From NCBI GenBank assembly GCA_031081585.1, contig JAVHLY010000019.1, positions 1-58,164 on the forward strand: a stretch of 58,164 bases of DNA. The letters run 5' to 3'. Position numbers and translations under genes: made by a program. Positions within the stretch are counted from its first letter, which is position 1; each line of letters begins with the position of its first letter. Below the pieces are notes generated by a model that worked only from the letters and a program-made list of their open reading frames with translations, did not search any database and had not been told where the DNA came from. Source of the stretch: Armatimonadota bacterium (GTDB lineage Bacteria; Sysuimicrobiota; Sysuimicrobiia; Sysuimicrobiales; Humicultoraceae). This document shows, one piece after another, positions 22,569 through 54,367 of this stretch.

Positions 22569-23054
22569 TCACCCGCGCACATCGAGGACGGTGTAGCGCA
22601 GGGTGCCGGCGGGAACCTGGATCTCGACCGTCTCGCCCTTCTTCCGGCCGAGCAGGGCCCGGCCCACGGGCGACTCGTTGCTGATCCGGTCATGCGTCGG
22701 GTCGGCCTCCGCCGACCCGACGATGGTGTAGGTGAGCCGCTCGCCGTTGCTGAGGTCCTGCAGGGTGACGGTGCAGCCGACGGTGACCTCGTCGGTCTTG
22801 CGGTCGTTCCCGTCGATGACGCGGGCGTTGCGCAGAATGGCCTCCAGCTGGAGGATGCGCCCCTCCACGAAGGCCTGCTCGTTCTTGGCGTCCTCGTACT
22901 CGGCGTTCTCGGCGAGGTCGCCGAAGTCCTTGGCCGCCTTGATGCGCTCGGCGATCTCCTTGCGCCGCACGACCTTGAGGTGCTCCAGCTCTTCCTCGAG
23001 CCGGCGCAGCCCCTCCGGGGTCAGGATCGTCTCCTTCTCACCCTTGTCGACCAT
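22569..23054 (-). CDS. greA: Transcription elongation factor GreA
   Basis: The coiled-coil N-terminal domain carries LTPEGLRRLEEELEHLKVVRR and the acidic tip DFGDLAENAEYEDAKNEQ. The C-terminal FKBP-like domain ends ESPVGRALLGRKKGETVEIQVPAG. GreA stimulates RNA cleavage in backtracked RNA polymerase. ATG 23054 gives 161 residues, the normal size. The gene has a strong promoter and a terminator-like hairpin in its leader. Confidence 0.96.
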   Translation of the reverse strand: MVDKGEKETILTPEGLRRLEEELEHLKVVRRKEIAERIKAAKDFGDLAENAEYEDAKNEQAFVEGRILQLEAILRNARVIDGNDRKTDEVTVGCTVTLQDLSNGERLTYTIVGSAEADPTHDRISNESPVGRALLGRKKGETVEIQVPAGTLRYTVLDVRG

Positions 23055-23171
23055 ACGCTCCACCGGGATGCCCGCCCTCCTGCCCGGGACGACCTCCCCC
23101 TGGCAGACGTCGACCGTGACGCTCGCGCGCCACGTCGGATGCGGCCACCCGTGCACGGGCGGGCCGGGGGG

Positions 23172-23467: not shown

Positions 23468-24559
23468 TCATCCGACCACCCCGGAGGCGCGGACGGCGCG
23501 GGTGCGGATGCGCTCCACCTCCTCGTCCGGGATGGCCCGCTCGAAGCGGCGGAACCCGGCGACGCGGAAGCCGTGGCGGCGCCCCAACGCCAGGATCTCC
23601 TCCACCTGCGCCACGCTGATGGCCCGCCCCACCGTGTAGTCGGCGTACCGCCGCTCCAGCGCCAAGATCATCGTCTCGGCCATGCACGCCTCCACCATGC
23701 GCGGCGGGAGGCCGAAGTCCAGGCCGAAGTCCGGCTCTCCCGGCACCTCGATGACGCCGCCGTCGATCACCAGCACGTCCCCCCGCCGCTCGTAGACCAG
23801 GCGGGAGACGTTGCGGGGGCGGGCCACGTCGCAGACCACCGCGCCGGGCCGCAGGTCCTCGGGCTCGATGAGCGGCTCGGTGGCCGACGTGACGGTGAAG
23901 ACGATGTCGCCGTCGCGCACCGCGCGGCGGGGGTCGGCGGCGGTGGCGACGTCGCGCGCCGTCTTGCGCAGGTCGGCGGCCAGCGCCTCCAGGCGGTCGG
24001 GGGTGCGCGCCACCAGCGTCAGCCGCGCCGCCTGCGGGGCCACCAGCCGGCTCACCGCCGCGCCGATGGCCCCCGTGGCCCCCACCATGACCACGTGGGC
24101 CTGCGCCGGCCCCCTCCCCAGCCGCTCCGCCGCCAGCCACGCCGCCTCCACCGCCGTCCCGGCGGTGTAGGCGTTGCCGGTGGTGACGCCGATGCGCACG
24201 CGCTCGGCCACCGTCACCCCGCCGTCGCCCACCACCTTGGTGAAGGCGGCCAGCCCCATGATGCCCGCGCCCAGGCGTTCGGCCAGGGCCCCGCACTGCG
24301 CCAGACGGCGGTAGACGAACTCGGGCGGGCTGGCCAGCAGGACGCGCGTGGTGAGCGGCAGCCCGATGAACCACCCCTCCGCCGTCGCCCCCGTGGGCGA
24401 GCGGATCCCGGTGATGCGCGAGGCGACCAGCGGGGGGACGAACCGCGCCGCCCACTCCAGCAGCGGGCCGGGCGCGCGCCGCAGCACGCCGAACTTGCGG
24501 GCGAAGTCCTCCACCCGCAGCGGGTGGAGGACGAAGGCGAAGCGCCCGGGTGCCGTCAT
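23468..24559 (-). CDS. Acyl-ACP reductase-like / shikimate-dehydrogenase-like oxidoreductase
   Basis: The protein has a Rossmann motif (VVMVGATGAIGAAVS). Before it lies a segment, ITGIRSPTGATAEGWFIGLP and VVGDGGVTVAERVRIGVTTGNAYT, resembling cyanobacterial long-chain acyl-ACP reductase, which makes fatty aldehydes. The C-terminal part, FGLPPRMVEACMAETMILALERRY with GRAISVAQVEEI, also matches. It could instead be one of the proteins labelled shikimate dehydrogenase in databases. Its ATG overlaps the upstream gene by 4 nt. No aldehyde-deformylating oxygenase is present. Confidence 0.7.
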   Translation of the reverse strand: MTAPGRFAFVLHPLRVEDFARKFGVLRRAPGPLLEWAARFVPPLVASRITGIRSPTGATAEGWFIGLPLTTRVLLASPPEFVYRRLAQCGALAERLGAGIMGLAAFTKVVGDGGVTVAERVRIGVTTGNAYTAGTAVEAAWLAAERLGRGPAQAHVVMVGATGAIGAAVSRLVAPQAARLTLVARTPDRLEALAADLRKTARDVATAADPRRAVRDGDIVFTVTSATEPLIEPEDLRPGAVVCDVARPRNVSRLVYERRGDVLVIDGGVIEVPGEPDFGLDFGLPPRMVEACMAETMILALERRYADYTVGRAISVAQVEEILALGRRHGFRVAGFRRFERAIPDEEVERIRTRAVRASGVVG

Positions 24560-25587
24560 GAGGGCGCCCCGGCCGCCGGGTGCGGCCCGCGGACCGGCGC
24601 GGTCCCGGGCTGCGGCGCCCAGGCCCGCTCCAGGTTGAGCACTTCGACCCGCGGCCGGAAGCCCGCCCGGGCCATCAACGTCAGGTAGTCTTGCGGCGCG
24701 AGCTCCTCGGGCCGCCGCCCTGAGACCGCCACCAGGATCGCCTGCACCAGGTTCGTCCCCGGCGAGCGGCCGCCGCCGAGCTCGGGCGTGGAGGTGACGA
24801 CCATCCACACGCCGCGGCGGCGCAGCGCCTCCACGTCAGCGGCGGTGAGGGTGTTGGTGAAGACGAGCTTCCCGCCGAGGTCCTCGGGCATGTGCCGGCG
24901 GATGTAGAGGAAGTCCCCGGCCAGCACCTCGGCCCAGGCGTAGGCGCCGGCGAAACGCGGGACGATCTCCTCCTGCCGGGCGCCGGTGGGGTAGAGCCAG
25001 GTGAAGGGCAGGCGCGTGATCACGGGCAGCGCCAGCGCCGCCAGCACGCGCACCGTCCCCAGCCCCCGCAGCAGGACCGGCAGGCCCAGCGCGAACATGA
25101 GGTCGCCGAAGCGCACGTCGCTGCCGGCCCGGGTGAAGGCCTCGGCCAGCCCGTAGCGGTCGACCGCGCTCACCAGCAGCACCCGCCGCCCGCGCAGGTC
25201 CACCCCGTGCTCCCGCGGCAACCACTCCAGCACGAGCCGGCGCTCCAGCAGGCTCTTCAGCGCCCCGCCGTCCACCACCGGCGTGCGCAGGCCCCGCACC
25301 AGGCGGGCGATGTCGCGGATGGGGTAGCGGCGGTGACCCACCGTGAGGGCCAAGTTGGCCCCGCCGATGGCCAGGACGTCCACCTGGCCGTCGAGGGCAC
25401 GCAGCATCCGGCCGTAGGCGGCCAGGTCCGGCACGCCGATCCGCTCGGCCACCACCTCGCGCCCCAGCACCCGCAACGTGAGGCGGTAGTCGCGGGCGGG
25501 CGAGCCCAGGCTCACCGAGACCACGCGCAGCGGCCGCGCCGCGTCGTCCCCGACGGGCGCGGGGGACGGAGGGGAGGCGGCGATCAC
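24556..25587 (-). CDS. Conserved protein often labelled quinate 5-dehydrogenase; function unknown
   Basis: The 343-residue product starts (after a disordered stretch) VVSVSLGSPARDYRLTLRVLGREVVAERIG. It contains DVLAIGGANLALTVGHRRYPIRDI and VMFALGLPV-like segments, and WMVVTSTPELGGGRSPGTNL. I see no classical NAD-binding GxGxxG, so the database name is doubtful. It is translationally coupled to the reductase downstream and follows coaX by 22 nt. The pair probably acts in one pathway. Confidence 0.65.
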   Translation of the reverse strand: MIAASPPSPAPVGDDAARPLRVVSVSLGSPARDYRLTLRVLGREVVAERIGVPDLAAYGRMLRALDGQVDVLAIGGANLALTVGHRRYPIRDIARLVRGLRTPVVDGGALKSLLERRLVLEWLPREHGVDLRGRRVLLVSAVDRYGLAEAFTRAGSDVRFGDLMFALGLPVLLRGLGTVRVLAALALPVITRLPFTWLYPTGARQEEIVPRFAGAYAWAEVLAGDFLYIRRHMPEDLGGKLVFTNTLTAADVEALRRRGVWMVVTSTPELGGGRSPGTNLVQAILVAVSGRRPEELAPQDYLTLMARAGFRPRVEVLNLERAWAPQPGTAPVRGPHPAAGAPS

Positions 25588-25609: not shown

Positions 25610-26425
25610 TCACAGCCGCCCCTCGCCCGAGGGGCGCGCCGGTGCGGGTTCCCGGTTGCGCTCGTAGATCAGACGCAGGCCCTCCAGGGCCAGCAGCGGC
25701 TCGTGGTGCATGATGCTGCGACACTCCTGCAGGATCAGCTCCGCCCACCCCCCGGTGGCCACGGTCACCGCCGGCCGACCCAGTTCCTCCTGCATGCGCC
25801 TCAGCAACTCCTCCACCTGCCCGACGAAGCCGAAGAAGATCCCCGACTGCATCGCCGCCACCGTCGACCGGCCGATGGCCGTGCGCGGCCGCACCAGCTC
25901 CACGCGGTGGAGCTGGGCGGCGTGCTCGGCCAGCGCCTCCACGGAGATGCCCACCCCCGGGGCGATGGCGCCGCCGAGGAAGTCCCCCTCCGCCGAGACC
26001 ACCGAGAAGGTCGTGGCCGTGCCCAGGTCGACGACGATGACCGGCCCGCCGTAGCGGGCGTAGGCGGCGACGGCGTTGCAGATGCGGTCCGCCCCCACCT
26101 CCTTGGGGTTCTCGTAGAGGATGCGCATGCCCGTGCGCACCCCGGGCCCCACCACCAGCGGGACCTGCCCCAGGTACTGGCGGCAGAGGCGCTCCATCGT
26201 GTCCATCAGCGGCGGGACGACCGAGGCGATGGCCACGCCCCCGACGTCCCCGAAGGCCGCCCCCCCGGAGGTGAAGAGCGCCCGCAGCAGCATGGCGTAC
26301 TCGTCCGCGGTCTTGTGCCGGTCGGTGGCGATGCGCCAGTGGTGGAGGAGGTCCGCGCCCCGGTACAGCGCCAGCTTGATCAGGGTGTTGTTGATGTTCA
26401 CCGCGAGGAGCAGCCCGGACGCCAT
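25610..26425 (-). CDS. coaX: Type III pantothenate kinase CoaX
   Basis: The first step of coenzyme A synthesis, phosphorylation of pantothenate. The ASKHA-fold motifs are seen: EVGADR (catalytic Asp), VVDLGTATTFSVV, GGAIAPGVGISVEAL, and VATGGWAEL. The first nucleotide-binding loop is odd: AVNINNT where the family has DxGNT, so the usual Asp is Asn. ATG 26425 is chosen. It lies directly after the S-component gene, suggesting that pantothenate is the transported vitamin. Confidence 0.9.
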   Translation of the reverse strand: MASGLLLAVNINNTLIKLALYRGADLLHHWRIATDRHKTADEYAMLLRALFTSGGAAFGDVGGVAIASVVPPLMDTMERLCRQYLGQVPLVVGPGVRTGMRILYENPKEVGADRICNAVAAYARYGGPVIVVDLGTATTFSVVSAEGDFLGGAIAPGVGISVEALAEHAAQLHRVELVRPRTAIGRSTVAAMQSGIFFGFVGQVEELLRRMQEELGRPAVTVATGGWAELILQECRSIMHHEPLLALEGLRLIYERNREPAPARPSGEGRL

Positions 26426-26451: not shown

Positions 26452-27237
26452 TCAGGCGCCGCCGCGCATGGCCGTGACGGCGCGGTAGACCGGGACGGTG
26501 ACGAGCACGGCCAGGATCACCTCGGGGAGGCCGTGGGTCGCCCCGACGAGGACGGCGGCGCCGGCGGGCAGGAAGCCGAAGAGCACCGCCAGCGTGAGCA
26601 CCCCCACGGTGTTGGTGAGCGTCCCGGCCACCGCGGCCGCCGCCGGGGCGGCGTTCTCCCCGCGCAGCAGCGCATGGGCGAGGAGGGCGGAGGCCACCCC
26701 CGCCGCCACCGGCAGCCAGAGCGACGAGGCGGTGGCCGCGGCCACGGTGCGGTAGCCCTCCACGAGCCAGTTGGGCTGGATCCGTCCCGCCGCCAGCGCG
26801 GCCAGGAAGCGCACCGCCCCGGGGCCGAGGATCGTGTAGATCCCCGCGCCCACCGCGGCCGCGGCGAAGAGGCGGGCGTGCCGGGCGGCCAGCGCGCGGA
26901 AGACCAGGAAGGCCACCACCCCGATGAGGATGCGCGGGCCGAAGGCGATGAGCGGCTGCTTGAAGATGGGGATGGTCGCCCGGGTGAAGGAGAAGGCCCC
27001 GAAGATGGCGCCGACGAGCGCCCCCACGACGGGACCTTCCAGCACGGCGGCGATGATCACCGGGATGTGCATGGTCGTGGCGCTCCCGGCCGGCGTGGGG
27101 GCGGGGATGAAGCCGAGCCCGGGGACGAGCCCGAGCACGACGGCCACGGCACCGAGGGCGCCGCTCACCGTGATGTCCCGGGGCGTGAGGCGGACCCCCC
27201 AGCGTGCAGGCGGGGGGGCGAGGCGGGCGTGGGCCAT
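26452..27237 (-). CDS. ECF transporter S-component, probably for pantothenate
   Basis: This 261-residue membrane protein has several hydrophobic helices and the S-component signature TTMHIPVIIAAVLEGPVVGALVGAIFGAFSF near the N-terminus. S-components bind a vitamin and dock on a shared EcfA/A'/T module, which is not in the window. The substrate is inferred only from its place 27 nt upstream of coaX. ATG 27237 has a GGAGGG site 8 nt before it. Confidence 0.82.
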   Translation of the reverse strand: MAHARLAPPPARWGVRLTPRDITVSGALGAVAVVLGLVPGLGFIPAPTPAGSATTMHIPVIIAAVLEGPVVGALVGAIFGAFSFTRATIPIFKQPLIAFGPRILIGVVAFLVFRALAARHARLFAAAAVGAGIYTILGPGAVRFLAALAAGRIQPNWLVEGYRTVAAATASSLWLPVAAGVASALLAHALLRGENAAPAAAAVAGTLTNTVGVLTLAVLFGFLPAGAAVLVGATHGLPEVILAVLVTVPVYRAVTAMRGGA

Positions 27238-50119: not shown

Positions 50120-50861
50120 CAGTGTTGTTACTCCTCCTGGAAGGGGAGGGGGCAGGTCATTTCTGCCTGCCTCTTTCAGTCGCCTGAAAGCTCGGACTGT
50201 ATCTTCACCTCGTGCGAGGTGTCTGGCGTACAGTCTCTGAGGGTTCCAGATGAGCAAGGACCGTCTCCAGCGACAGCCGTCGCCGAGCTCCACCCTGATT
50301 CATCGCGAAGGCCACGCGCAGCAACTCGCGGAGTCCTGCGGGGTGACGATGTTGCCCCACCGCCACAGCCCGGACGACAGCCGCGAACCGCTCGAAATCA
50401 TGACGCTTCGTCGTGTGCAGGCGATACCGCTCGAAGAACGGGATCACCTTCCCGATCAGGTCGGAGCGATGTCTTACCACCAACACCCAGGTTCTGTCTC
50501 GCAGGCTCTTCCCGTGGTTCCGCTTGATGTGCCCGCAGCCCAACACGCTCTGGATCAACTCCAGCACGTGCTGATTACCGTCGTTCTGGGAAACCCGGAA
50601 CTCGGGCACGATCTGCCATCGCCACCGGGTGGTGGGATGACGTTGCACCGCCACGTGGAACGAACCTTCCCCGTCGACAAAACCTGCGATGTAGTGGCTG
50701 ATCCCCTCATCTGGCCTTCCCTGCTGGTTACCTGCACCCATCGCATTGTCACCCATCCCTACCTATCGGCACATCCTCAACGGGTTTGCAGGATGGGTAG
50801 CGTGGGATCCCCCAGGCTTTCCAGCATATAGCCAGATTTATAGACAGCAACGGTCCAGGTT
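50120..50861 (-). mobile_element. Group I intron at 23S position about 2609
   Basis: The 742-nt insert follows a U and ends in G. P1 pairs exon AGACAG-U (50862-50868) with IGS GCTGTCT (50842-50848), giving the required U.G at the splice site. P10 pairs GGACCG (50851-50856) with 3' exon CGGTCC (50113-50118). P4 pairs GCTGG (50821-50825) with CCAGC (50723-50727). The R and S elements read CTCAGAGACTGTACG (about 50227-50241) and GAAGATACAGTCC (about 50194-50206), forming P7. Removal restores the E. coli exon junction GACAGT/TCGG. Confidence 0.95.
50205..50756 (-). CDS. LAGLIDADG homing endonuclease in the 2609 intron
   Basis: A 183-residue single-motif LAGLIDADG protein: [16 protein letters not shown] followed by [22 protein letters not shown] and [26 protein letters not shown]. 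It resembles I-CreI, which acts as a dimer and cuts a neighbouring 23S site. The ORF starts in the P3-P4 region and its stop lies inside the S element, so coding and ribozyme sequences overlap over most of the intron. It is intact and probably functional. Confidence 0.93.
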
Positions 50862-50898
50862 ACTGTCTCACGACGTTCTGAACCCAGCTCACGTACCT

Positions 50899-50932
<34 letters not shown>

Positions 50933-51007
50933 ACTACAGCCCCAGGATGAGATGAGCCGACATCGAGGTGCCAAACAGGGCCGTCGATGTGGACTCTTGG
51001 GCCCTAT

Positions 51008-51041
<34 letters not shown>

Positions 51042-51197
51042 AAGCCACGGCGCTTCCACTTGCCGCCGTAGGATCACTAGGCCCGGCTTTCGCCCCTGCT
51101 CGGCTTGTAGGCCTCGCAGTCAAGCCCCCTTATGCCCTTGCACTCGCCGCACGGTTTCCAACCGTGCTGAGGGGACCTTTGGGCGCCTCCGTTACCG

Positions 51198-51234
<37 letters not shown>

Positions 51235-51513
51235 CCACTGTCCCCAGACCCGCTGAGGGCCCAGGTTAGGACGTAACCTTGCCGAGGGTGGTATTCCAAG
51301 GGTGGCTCCACCGAGGCTGGCGCCCCGGCTTCTCCGCCTCCCACCTATCCTCTACACGGTAAGACCACATCCAATGACAAGCTGCAGTAAAGCTCCACGG
51401 GGTCTTTCCGTCCAGCCGCGGGTGGCCCGTGTCTTCACGGGCTTCACAACTTCGCCGAGTCCCTCGTCGAGACAGCGCTCAGCTCGTTACGCCATTCGTG
51501 CAGGTCGGAACTT

Positions 51514-52257
<744 letters not shown>

Positions 52258-52329
52258 GGTTATAGTTACCGCCGCCGTTCACCGGGGCTTTGGTTCAGGG
52301 CTTCGCCCGGGCGAACCCGGACTAACCCG

Positions 52330-52365
<36 letters not shown>

Positions 52366-53098
52366 CCTATACGTCGCCTTACGGCTTCGCAGAGACCTGT
52401 GTTTTTGTTAAACAGTCGGCTGAGCCTATTCTCTGCGACCTCCTCGGGCTCGGTGCGTGACGCACCTCACCCTACCGAGGCACCCCTTGTCCCGAAGTTA
52501 CGGGGTCATTTTGCCGAGTTCCTTGACGAGGGTTCTCTCGCGCGCCTTGGCACGTTGAGTGCCTGGCCACCTGTGTCGGTTTGCGGTACGGGCGCCCGCC
52601 AGCCTGGCCACGAGGCTTTTCTTGGCAGTGTGGGCTGAGCCACTTCGCCGGGCATGCAACCCAGCTCGCGCTCGCGTCTCGGCGTTGGATGAGGCCCCGG
52701 ATTTGCCTGGGGCCTCCGCCTACCCGCTTGGCCCGGGACGACCAGCCCCCGGTAGGCCTACCCTCCTGCGTCCCCCCTTGGCTCATGACGGCTGACGAGC
52801 GGGGCCGGAATGTCGACCGGCTGTCCATCGGCTACGCCTGTCGGCCTCGCCTTAGGTCCCGCCTAACCTTACGCGGACGAACCTTCCGTAAGAACCCTTG
52901 GCCTTACGGCGGGCAGGATTCTCACCTGCCTTTTCGCTACTCATGCCGGCATTCGCACTTCCGGGTCGTCCAGCGGTCCTCCCGGTCCGCCTTCAACCTA
53001 CACCGGAACGCTCCCCTACCGCCCCGCGTCCCAGCGGACGCGAGACCCGCAGCTTCGGTACGTGGCTTGAGCCCCGTTGAATCTTCGGCGCAGCATCG

Positions 53099-53166
<68 letters not shown>

Positions 53167-53775
53167 AGCGAGGCCACTTCCTTTCCCACTTAGCCACGAT
53201 TTGGGGACCTTAGCTGGCGGTCTGGGTTGTTCCCCTCTCGACGATGGAGCTTATCCCCCACCGTCTCACTCCCGACGAACGCCGTCCGGGCATTCGGAGT
53301 TTGGTTGGGTTCGGTACGGGTCCTCCCGCCCTAGCCCATCCAGTGCTCTACCACCCGGAGGCTTGGCACCGGGGCTGCACCTCAATGCATTTCGGGGAGA
53401 ACCAGCTATCTCCGGGTTCGATTGGCATTTCACCCCTACCCACAGCTCATCCCCTGGTTTTTCAACACCAGTGGGTTCGGGCCTCCACGCGGGGCTAACC
53501 GCGCTTCACCCTGGCCATGGGTAGCTCACCCGGTTTCGGGTCTGCACCGTGCGACTGCACGGCCGAAGCCGTGCCTCCCCTCCGGGAGCGGCGCCCTGTT
53601 CAGACTCGGTTTCCCTCCGCCTCCGCGATTCGCTCGCTTAAGCTCGCCACACGGTGCAACTCGCCGGCTCATTCTTCAATAGGCACGCCGTCAGGCATTC
53701 CGATCCCTGAAGGGATCGGCATAGCCCTCCGACTGTCTGTAGGCACACGGTTTCAGGTTCTATTTCACTCCCCTC

Positions 53776-53808
<33 letters not shown>

Positions 53809-54134
53809 CGTGCGCTATCGGTCGCCAGGGGTATTTAGCCTTGGAGGGTGGTCCCCCCAGCTTCCCGCGGGGTTCCACGTGTCCCGCGGTACTCAGGAAC
53901 GTCACCCAGGAAGTCCCCGCCCTTTCGCCTACCGGGCTCCTCACCGTCTACGGCCTGCCGTTCCAGGACAGTTCGGCTAGAGCGGGGATTGGTCACTTCC
54001 CGGCCGGTTCGCAGCCCGGCCCGGTGACGCCCTCCAACCCCCGCGGCGCAACGCCTGCGAGCTCTCACGCGCCGCGGGTTTGGGCTGTTCCCGTTTCGCT
54101 CGCCACTACTCCGGGAATCTCGGTTGATTTCTCT

Positions 54135-54166
<32 letters not shown>

Positions 54167-54367
54167 ACTGGCCCTCCCGCACCTATGGATTCAGCGCGGG
54201 ATCCGGCGGTATGACCCGCCGGGGGTTGCCCCATTCGGAGACGACCGGATCGAAGGTTGCTAGGCACCTCCCCGGTCCTTTCGCCGCCGGCAGCGTCCTT
54301 CATCGGCCCCTGGCGCCAGGGCATCCACCGTGCGCCCTTAGTAGCTTGAACACCCGCCTTAGGAGCA

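Follow-up and report, generated by a model that had tools for sequence, protein, structure and literature searches.

Domains related to one of the two proteins described here turn carrier-bound acyl groups into aldehydes, as set out in two papers (PMC9594044, PMC8341465). In the acyl-ACP reductase AAR, a cysteine takes the acyl chain from its carrier and NADPH frees the aldehyde, according to PMC9594044, and in PigE a thioester is reduced to an aldehyde, as reported in PMC8341465. We found a gene for a protein of this type, P0001, in the window (the whole 58,164-nucleotide stretch of DNA that was analysed), next to a gene for an uncharacterised protein, P0002, of which a search of the open-access literature yielded no study. 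The nearest named record is the MAG "Armatimonadetes bacterium CSP1-3" (L062). Transcription on the minus strand runs from an ECF transporter component through coaX, P0002 and P0001 to greA:

26455..27237, minus strand: ECF transporter component, upstream of coaX
25613..26425, minus strand: coaX, type III pantothenate kinase (Pan_kinase, E 3.9e-73), upstream neighbour, outside the claimed function
24556..25587, minus strand: P0002, uncharacterised protein of 343 amino acids with an AAR-like predicted fold, from the GTG at 25587 to the stop at 24556; without the Cys and the glycine triad, with invariant D143, R144, D162, D225 and N279
24556..24559, minus strand: ATGA overlap, the stop of P0002 shared with the start of P0001
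23468..24559, minus strand: P0001, AAR/thioester-reductase-type enzyme of 363 amino acids, from the ATG at 24559 to the stop at 23468; Cys292, loop GATGAIG (160-166) and R185 after beta-2
22572..23090, minus strand: greA, downstream neighbour, in a conserved housekeeping cluster

The 4-nt overlap of the two genes behind coaX, reported in the original prediction, was confirmed: the ATGA lies at 24556-24559, and the GTG start of P0002, preceded by GAGGGG at a distance of a few bases, follows the coaX stop by 22 nt. The same spacing of -4 is found between P0002 and P0001 in many relatives, with a range of -4 to +49 over the loci read. Elsewhere in the window, the 23S rRNA gene (50816-54351, minus strand) exceeds the model by about 600 bases, and two open reading frames inside or just behind it (51544-52236 and 50205-50756, both minus strand) have, by eye, the look of LAGLIDADG homing endonucleases; the 23S rRNA gene thus probably holds one or more introns.

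The reductase-type protein P0001

The best NCBIfam profile for P0001 was that of PigE, with 197.7 bits over residues 47-353, whereas the AAR profile (TIGR04058) scored 103.7 bits, below its curated cut-off of 449.7; Pfam recognised mainly the nucleotide domain (Shikimate_DH, PF01488, E 1.8e-13). The best solved relatives were the PigE-type aminotransferase/reductase 4ppm (E 1.4e-32) and the AAR 6jzq (E 6.6e-23), and in the alignment to these relatives Cys292 falls on the AAR cysteine. The AlphaFold2 model (pLDDT 91.0) has the whole-chain fold of AAR, superposing on 6jzq with a Z score of 37.7 and an rmsd of 2.6 over 325 residues at 28% identity; it reaches a Z of about 36 with the carmabin TAD domain (9e4u), 15.1 with the next family and 14.7-14.8 with shikimate dehydrogenases. 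The likeness to cyanobacterial AAR proposed from the DNA alone is real, but by profile score the protein stands closer to the PigE type. Cys292 is present in 35 of 36 aligned homologues, as is Gly166, and His12, Gly128, Gly160, Gly163, Asp244 and Glu295 are found in all 36. In our view P0001 most probably makes aldehydes by reducing acyl groups held on a carrier, and its cofactor is more likely NADPH than NADH, because of the arginine after beta-2 (R185) and the AAR precedent.

The deformylating oxygenase ADO, the partner of AAR in cyanobacteria, had been predicted to be missing, and indeed PF11266 found no match in the genome of the window nor in any other of the phylum (0/43), the control search returning a match in Synechococcus elongatus. 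The cyanobacterial alkane (AAR-ADO) pathway was rejected on this ground.

The partner protein P0002

P0002 matched neither a Pfam family (at E 1) nor a PHROG family, and its only NCBIfam match, MioC (E 0.024), is not meaningful; the second protein was thus correctly predicted to show no visible NAD motif. Its sequence had no meaningful match in the PDB, a hmmsearch with the family profile giving a best E of 0.16, which is at chance level, and neither the Shikimate_DH and aroE profiles nor any DNA-binding or signalling domain of Pfam and NCBIfam was matched. Structure prediction was the proposed check. Against the model (pLDDT 91.9, 75-sequence alignment), four AAR entries ranked first among 1000 re-aligned chains (Z 13.8-14.1, rmsd 4.4-4.9 over 245-250 residues, 13-14% identity), followed by TAD (Z 12.7-13.0) and then glutamate dehydrogenases (10.6 and below), with the shikimate dehydrogenase 2hk7 at 9.4. 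This tie of the predicted fold to AAR is one of superfamily level, because P0001 also reaches a Z of about 14 against shikimate dehydrogenases and the hhalign comparison of the P0001 and P0002 families was not significant (probability 0.2%, E 0.37). Sequence comparison yielded no proof that P0002 descends from AAR, either in this hhalign result or in the chance-level profile matches in the PDB.

The order of secondary structures is colinear between the two models, and this register, together with the weak hhalign alignment, places Cys292 of P0001 on Asn279 of P0002 (75/75 sequences), Gly163 on Asp143 (75/75), Gly160 on Ser, Cys or Ala in most sequences and Gly166 on Gly146 (71/75). At the position of the nucleotide loop P0002 reads SAVDRYG, without the glycine-rich NAD(P) loop. 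At twenty polar positions, conservation reaches 95% or more across the 75 sequences, and the alignment has no column that is mostly Cys.

Distribution of the pair and reductases lacking the cysteine

To describe the distribution of the two genes we used 43 genomes of the CSP1-3 phylum, 299 genomes of Bacillota (the Sporomusa phylum) and 80 named loci, counting as strong P0001 orthologues those over 400 bits and as AAR-type matches in the Bacillota sample those at E 1e-15. In the CSP1-3 phylum, P0002 occurs in 42/43 genomes and strong P0001 orthologues in 36/43; since all 36 adjoin P0002 on the same strand (coordinates compared by eye), the pairing is far beyond chance. The Bacillota sample has P0002 in 223 genomes and an AAR-type match in 191, with 186 genomes having both, 37 P0002 only, 5 the AAR-type only and 71 neither (Fisher p 1e-34, odds ratio 71, values inflated by shared ancestry and operon inheritance). 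In the suggested co-occurrence analysis, P0002 was usually found with an AAR-type protein (186/223), and always next to it for the strong orthologues of the phylum. Conversely, 37 of the 223 P0002-bearing genomes are without an AAR-type match at the threshold used, therefore P0002 can work alone. Of the 76 named loci with at least 700 bases of sequence, 40 have an AAR-type gene immediately behind P0002. Among 46 genomes chosen by hand from the 80 named loci, mostly those without an adjacent reductase, 36 encode one somewhere; no consistent functional neighbour of P0002 was seen in 16 inspected loci in which the reductase is not adjacent. In Carboxydothermus and others the P0001-type and P0002 genes are apart, and none of the 80 named loci showed a fusion of P0002 with P0001. 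Two loci (L124, L190) come from a record titled Methanoregulaceae archaeon and carry bacterial-looking genes beside Armatimonadota-like P0002 and P0001; this record is probably mislabelled or mis-binned.

Five P0002-bearing genomes of the phylum that lack a strong P0001 (G001, G002, G006, G011, G041) still show an AAR-type match of lower score. In G001, G002 and G041 this match is to the reductase part of a protein starting with a PlsY-like domain, and similar scores and open frames suggest the same type in G006 and G011. A weak match also occurs in 5 of the 36 P0001-bearing genomes (G004, G007-G010; read in G004, G007 and G010), the Fisher p for this pattern being 3.4e-4. Fusions of a PlsY-like glycerol-3-phosphate acyltransferase with an AAR-type reductase, of 548-602 amino acids and with the Cys kept, were seen in the CSP1-3 phylum and in one genome of the Bacillota sample. 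They were recognised by Pfam in L172:6145-7908(+), L173:3776-5581(-) and L180:7068-8711(+), and by sequence in L174, L175, L176 and L199:2720-4486(-); they possibly link aldehyde formation to membrane lipid synthesis. A second type, in Bacillota, joins a TamH-like class III transaminase to a thioester reductase (L178:6300-9032(+), L179:5729-8635(+), L200:2179-4917(+), L201:1928-4672(+), L202:7297-9987(-)). These fusions directly adjoin P0002 in L178, L179 and L201, preceding it in the last, and TamH-like fusions are found beside it in L098 and L116. They could possibly be acyl-to-amine enzymes outside the known tambjamine clusters.

A link of the pair to pantothenate and CoA supply, suggested by the neighbouring coaX, found no support. 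This link is weak because coaX is one of a group of clustered housekeeping genes (coaX, dusB, greA, lysS) with unrelated functions; any of these four genes is near P0002 in only 52 of the 80 named loci, and in Carboxydothermus the reductase remains in the cluster while the P0002 gene is elsewhere. CoA supply as a functional link is weakened by such loci, in which either gene has left coaX.

Low reductase scores were the criterion for selecting twelve loci (L201, L203-L213) in which the protein that adjoins P0002 in the slot of the reductase appears dead. Its cysteine is gone in eleven of them, replaced five times by W, twice by S and once each by G, E, D and A; the slot protein of L205 keeps the Cys and has lost Asn129. 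L137 provides a twelfth P0002-adjacent slot protein without the Cys (W), and L146, a near-perfect homologue counted apart from the P0002-adjacent set, carries Ser in place of the Cys and Val in place of the second glycine of the loop. In seven dead-slot genomes (G077, G094, G115, G211, G256, G267, G362) the search at E 1e-15 found no further AAR-type protein. Six others (G099, G184, G216, G245, G271, G296) show a split match over a frame of 901-959 amino acids, which suggests a transaminase-reductase fusion. All seventeen key residues checked in P0002 are kept in 9 of the 12 loci, the other three having a single Thr-to-Ser change. Pairwise omega over five pairs is 0.20-0.51 for the slot proteins and 0.06-0.15 for P0002 (dS being saturated in some pairs), so the slot protein is still constrained though relaxed, and P0002 is not relaxed. 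Parsimony on a quick tree of 85 rows, in which the dead rows are long-branched and unsurely placed, counts at least three changes of Cys state. A dead enzyme beside an intact partner, as found in some bacteria, is a hint that the pair has a role other than aldehyde production.

Interpretation and comparison with known systems

We propose, with a probability of roughly 0.55, that the pair consists of a reductase that forms aldehydes and a conserved partner of similar fold but without redox function, both acting as one unit, probably a hetero-oligomer. Gene order, co-occurrence, residues, predicted folds and the dead versions were observed, and the substrate, the cofactor, the physical contact and a ligand of P0002 are inferred. 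P0001 would be a thioester reductase, probably NADPH-dependent, whose Cys292 would accept the acyl group that a phosphopantetheine carrier (ACP or CoA) delivers, before hydride transfer releases the aldehyde. P0002, of similar fold, should be incapable of either the acyl-Cys or the hydride step in that way, because it has an invariant Asn at the Cys position and an invariant Asp at the middle loop glycine. The two proteins are translated together, and the retention of a slot protein beside P0002 even where reductase chemistry is gone speaks for a functional unit, most simply a complex. P0002 would then be the part that stays constant, its nearly invariant polar residues forming a site for a putative ligand, and P0001 the redox part, which in some lineages appears to be dead or replaced by a transaminase-reductase fusion, perhaps also by a PlsY-reductase fusion. 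Against a unit count the genomes with P0002 alone, those in which the genes are apart, and the lack of a fusion in the 80 loci. More tentatively, and with the odds against it, P0002 and its slot protein could form an ancient hetero-oligomer, spread across Bacillota, Armatimonadota and the CSP1-3 phylum, that serves primarily some purpose other than making aldehydes. The reductase would be a separable catalytic subunit, inactivated on several occasions, and the core of P0002 would keep a new site, catalytic or sensory and free of both Cys and glycine loop, for acyl groups bound to carriers.

The two proteins might instead never touch, P0002 being a separate enzyme that catalyses an adjacent step of metabolism, such as consumption of the aldehyde or preparation of the acyl donor. 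The 37/223 genomes with P0002 and no AAR-type protein, the different kinds of AAR-type protein that it accompanies and its 20 polar columns, which resemble an active site, all speak for this, but a purely metabolic link leaves unexplained why P0002 keeps a Cys-less slot protein in 12 loci, seven of them in genomes without another AAR-type protein, and we regard this alternative as rather unlikely. A role of P0002, with or without P0001, mainly as a sensor or regulator of acyl-carrier state, tied to an HTH protein of Bacillota, would fit its tolerance of a dead or missing reductase and the presence of the HTH protein in 24 of the 80 named loci, in most cases encoded immediately before P0002. 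However, the window has no such HTH gene and P0002 no DNA-binding or signalling domain, which makes this role improbable. The HTH protein itself has 180 amino acids and a C-terminal part without assigned family (for example L097:7450-7989(+), and 23 other loci), and in Carboxydothermus a similar one precedes the reductase. The name "quinate dehydrogenase" first given to the second gene proved to be a mislabelling. Apart from that label, a genuine quinate/shikimate dehydrogenase has in its favour only a two-domain fold loosely like that of 2hk7; already contradicted at the profile level by the complete lack of Shikimate_DH or aroE matches, and at odds with the invariant Asp at the middle loop glycine, this identity is highly implausible and was rejected.

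The preferred reading, a reductase and its conserved partner acting together, would give P0002 its first testable function through the tie to thioester reductases. This matters for a protein found in about three quarters of the sampled Bacillota group, with almost invariant polar residues and no Pfam or NCBIfam profile. The naturally dead reductases beside an intact P0002 represent evolution's own experiment for separating both roles, and the pair offers a lead to an undescribed metabolism of fatty aldehydes, amines or ether lipids in anaerobes and thermophiles.

Among known systems, shikimate/quinate dehydrogenases have the two-domain Rossmann architecture in common with the pair, with PF01488 matching the nucleotide domain of P0001 only, but P0002 matches no such profile and P0001 is far closer to AAR. 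The carmabin TAD domain (9e4u) is close in fold to P0001 (Z about 36) and resembles P0002 (Z about 13); unlike them, it sits in a natural-product assembly line. Cyanobacterial AAR (6jzq, TIGR04058) shares with P0001 the fold (Z 37.7), the Cys position and the loop, whereas identity is 28%, the score is below the TIGR04058 cut-off and ADO is absent from the 43 genomes. The thioester reductase domains of PigE and PtTamH, which are transaminase fusions, provide the best curated profile for P0001 and share its catalytic Cys and GxxGxxG loop, but P0001 stands alone, without a transaminase domain, and is paired with P0002.
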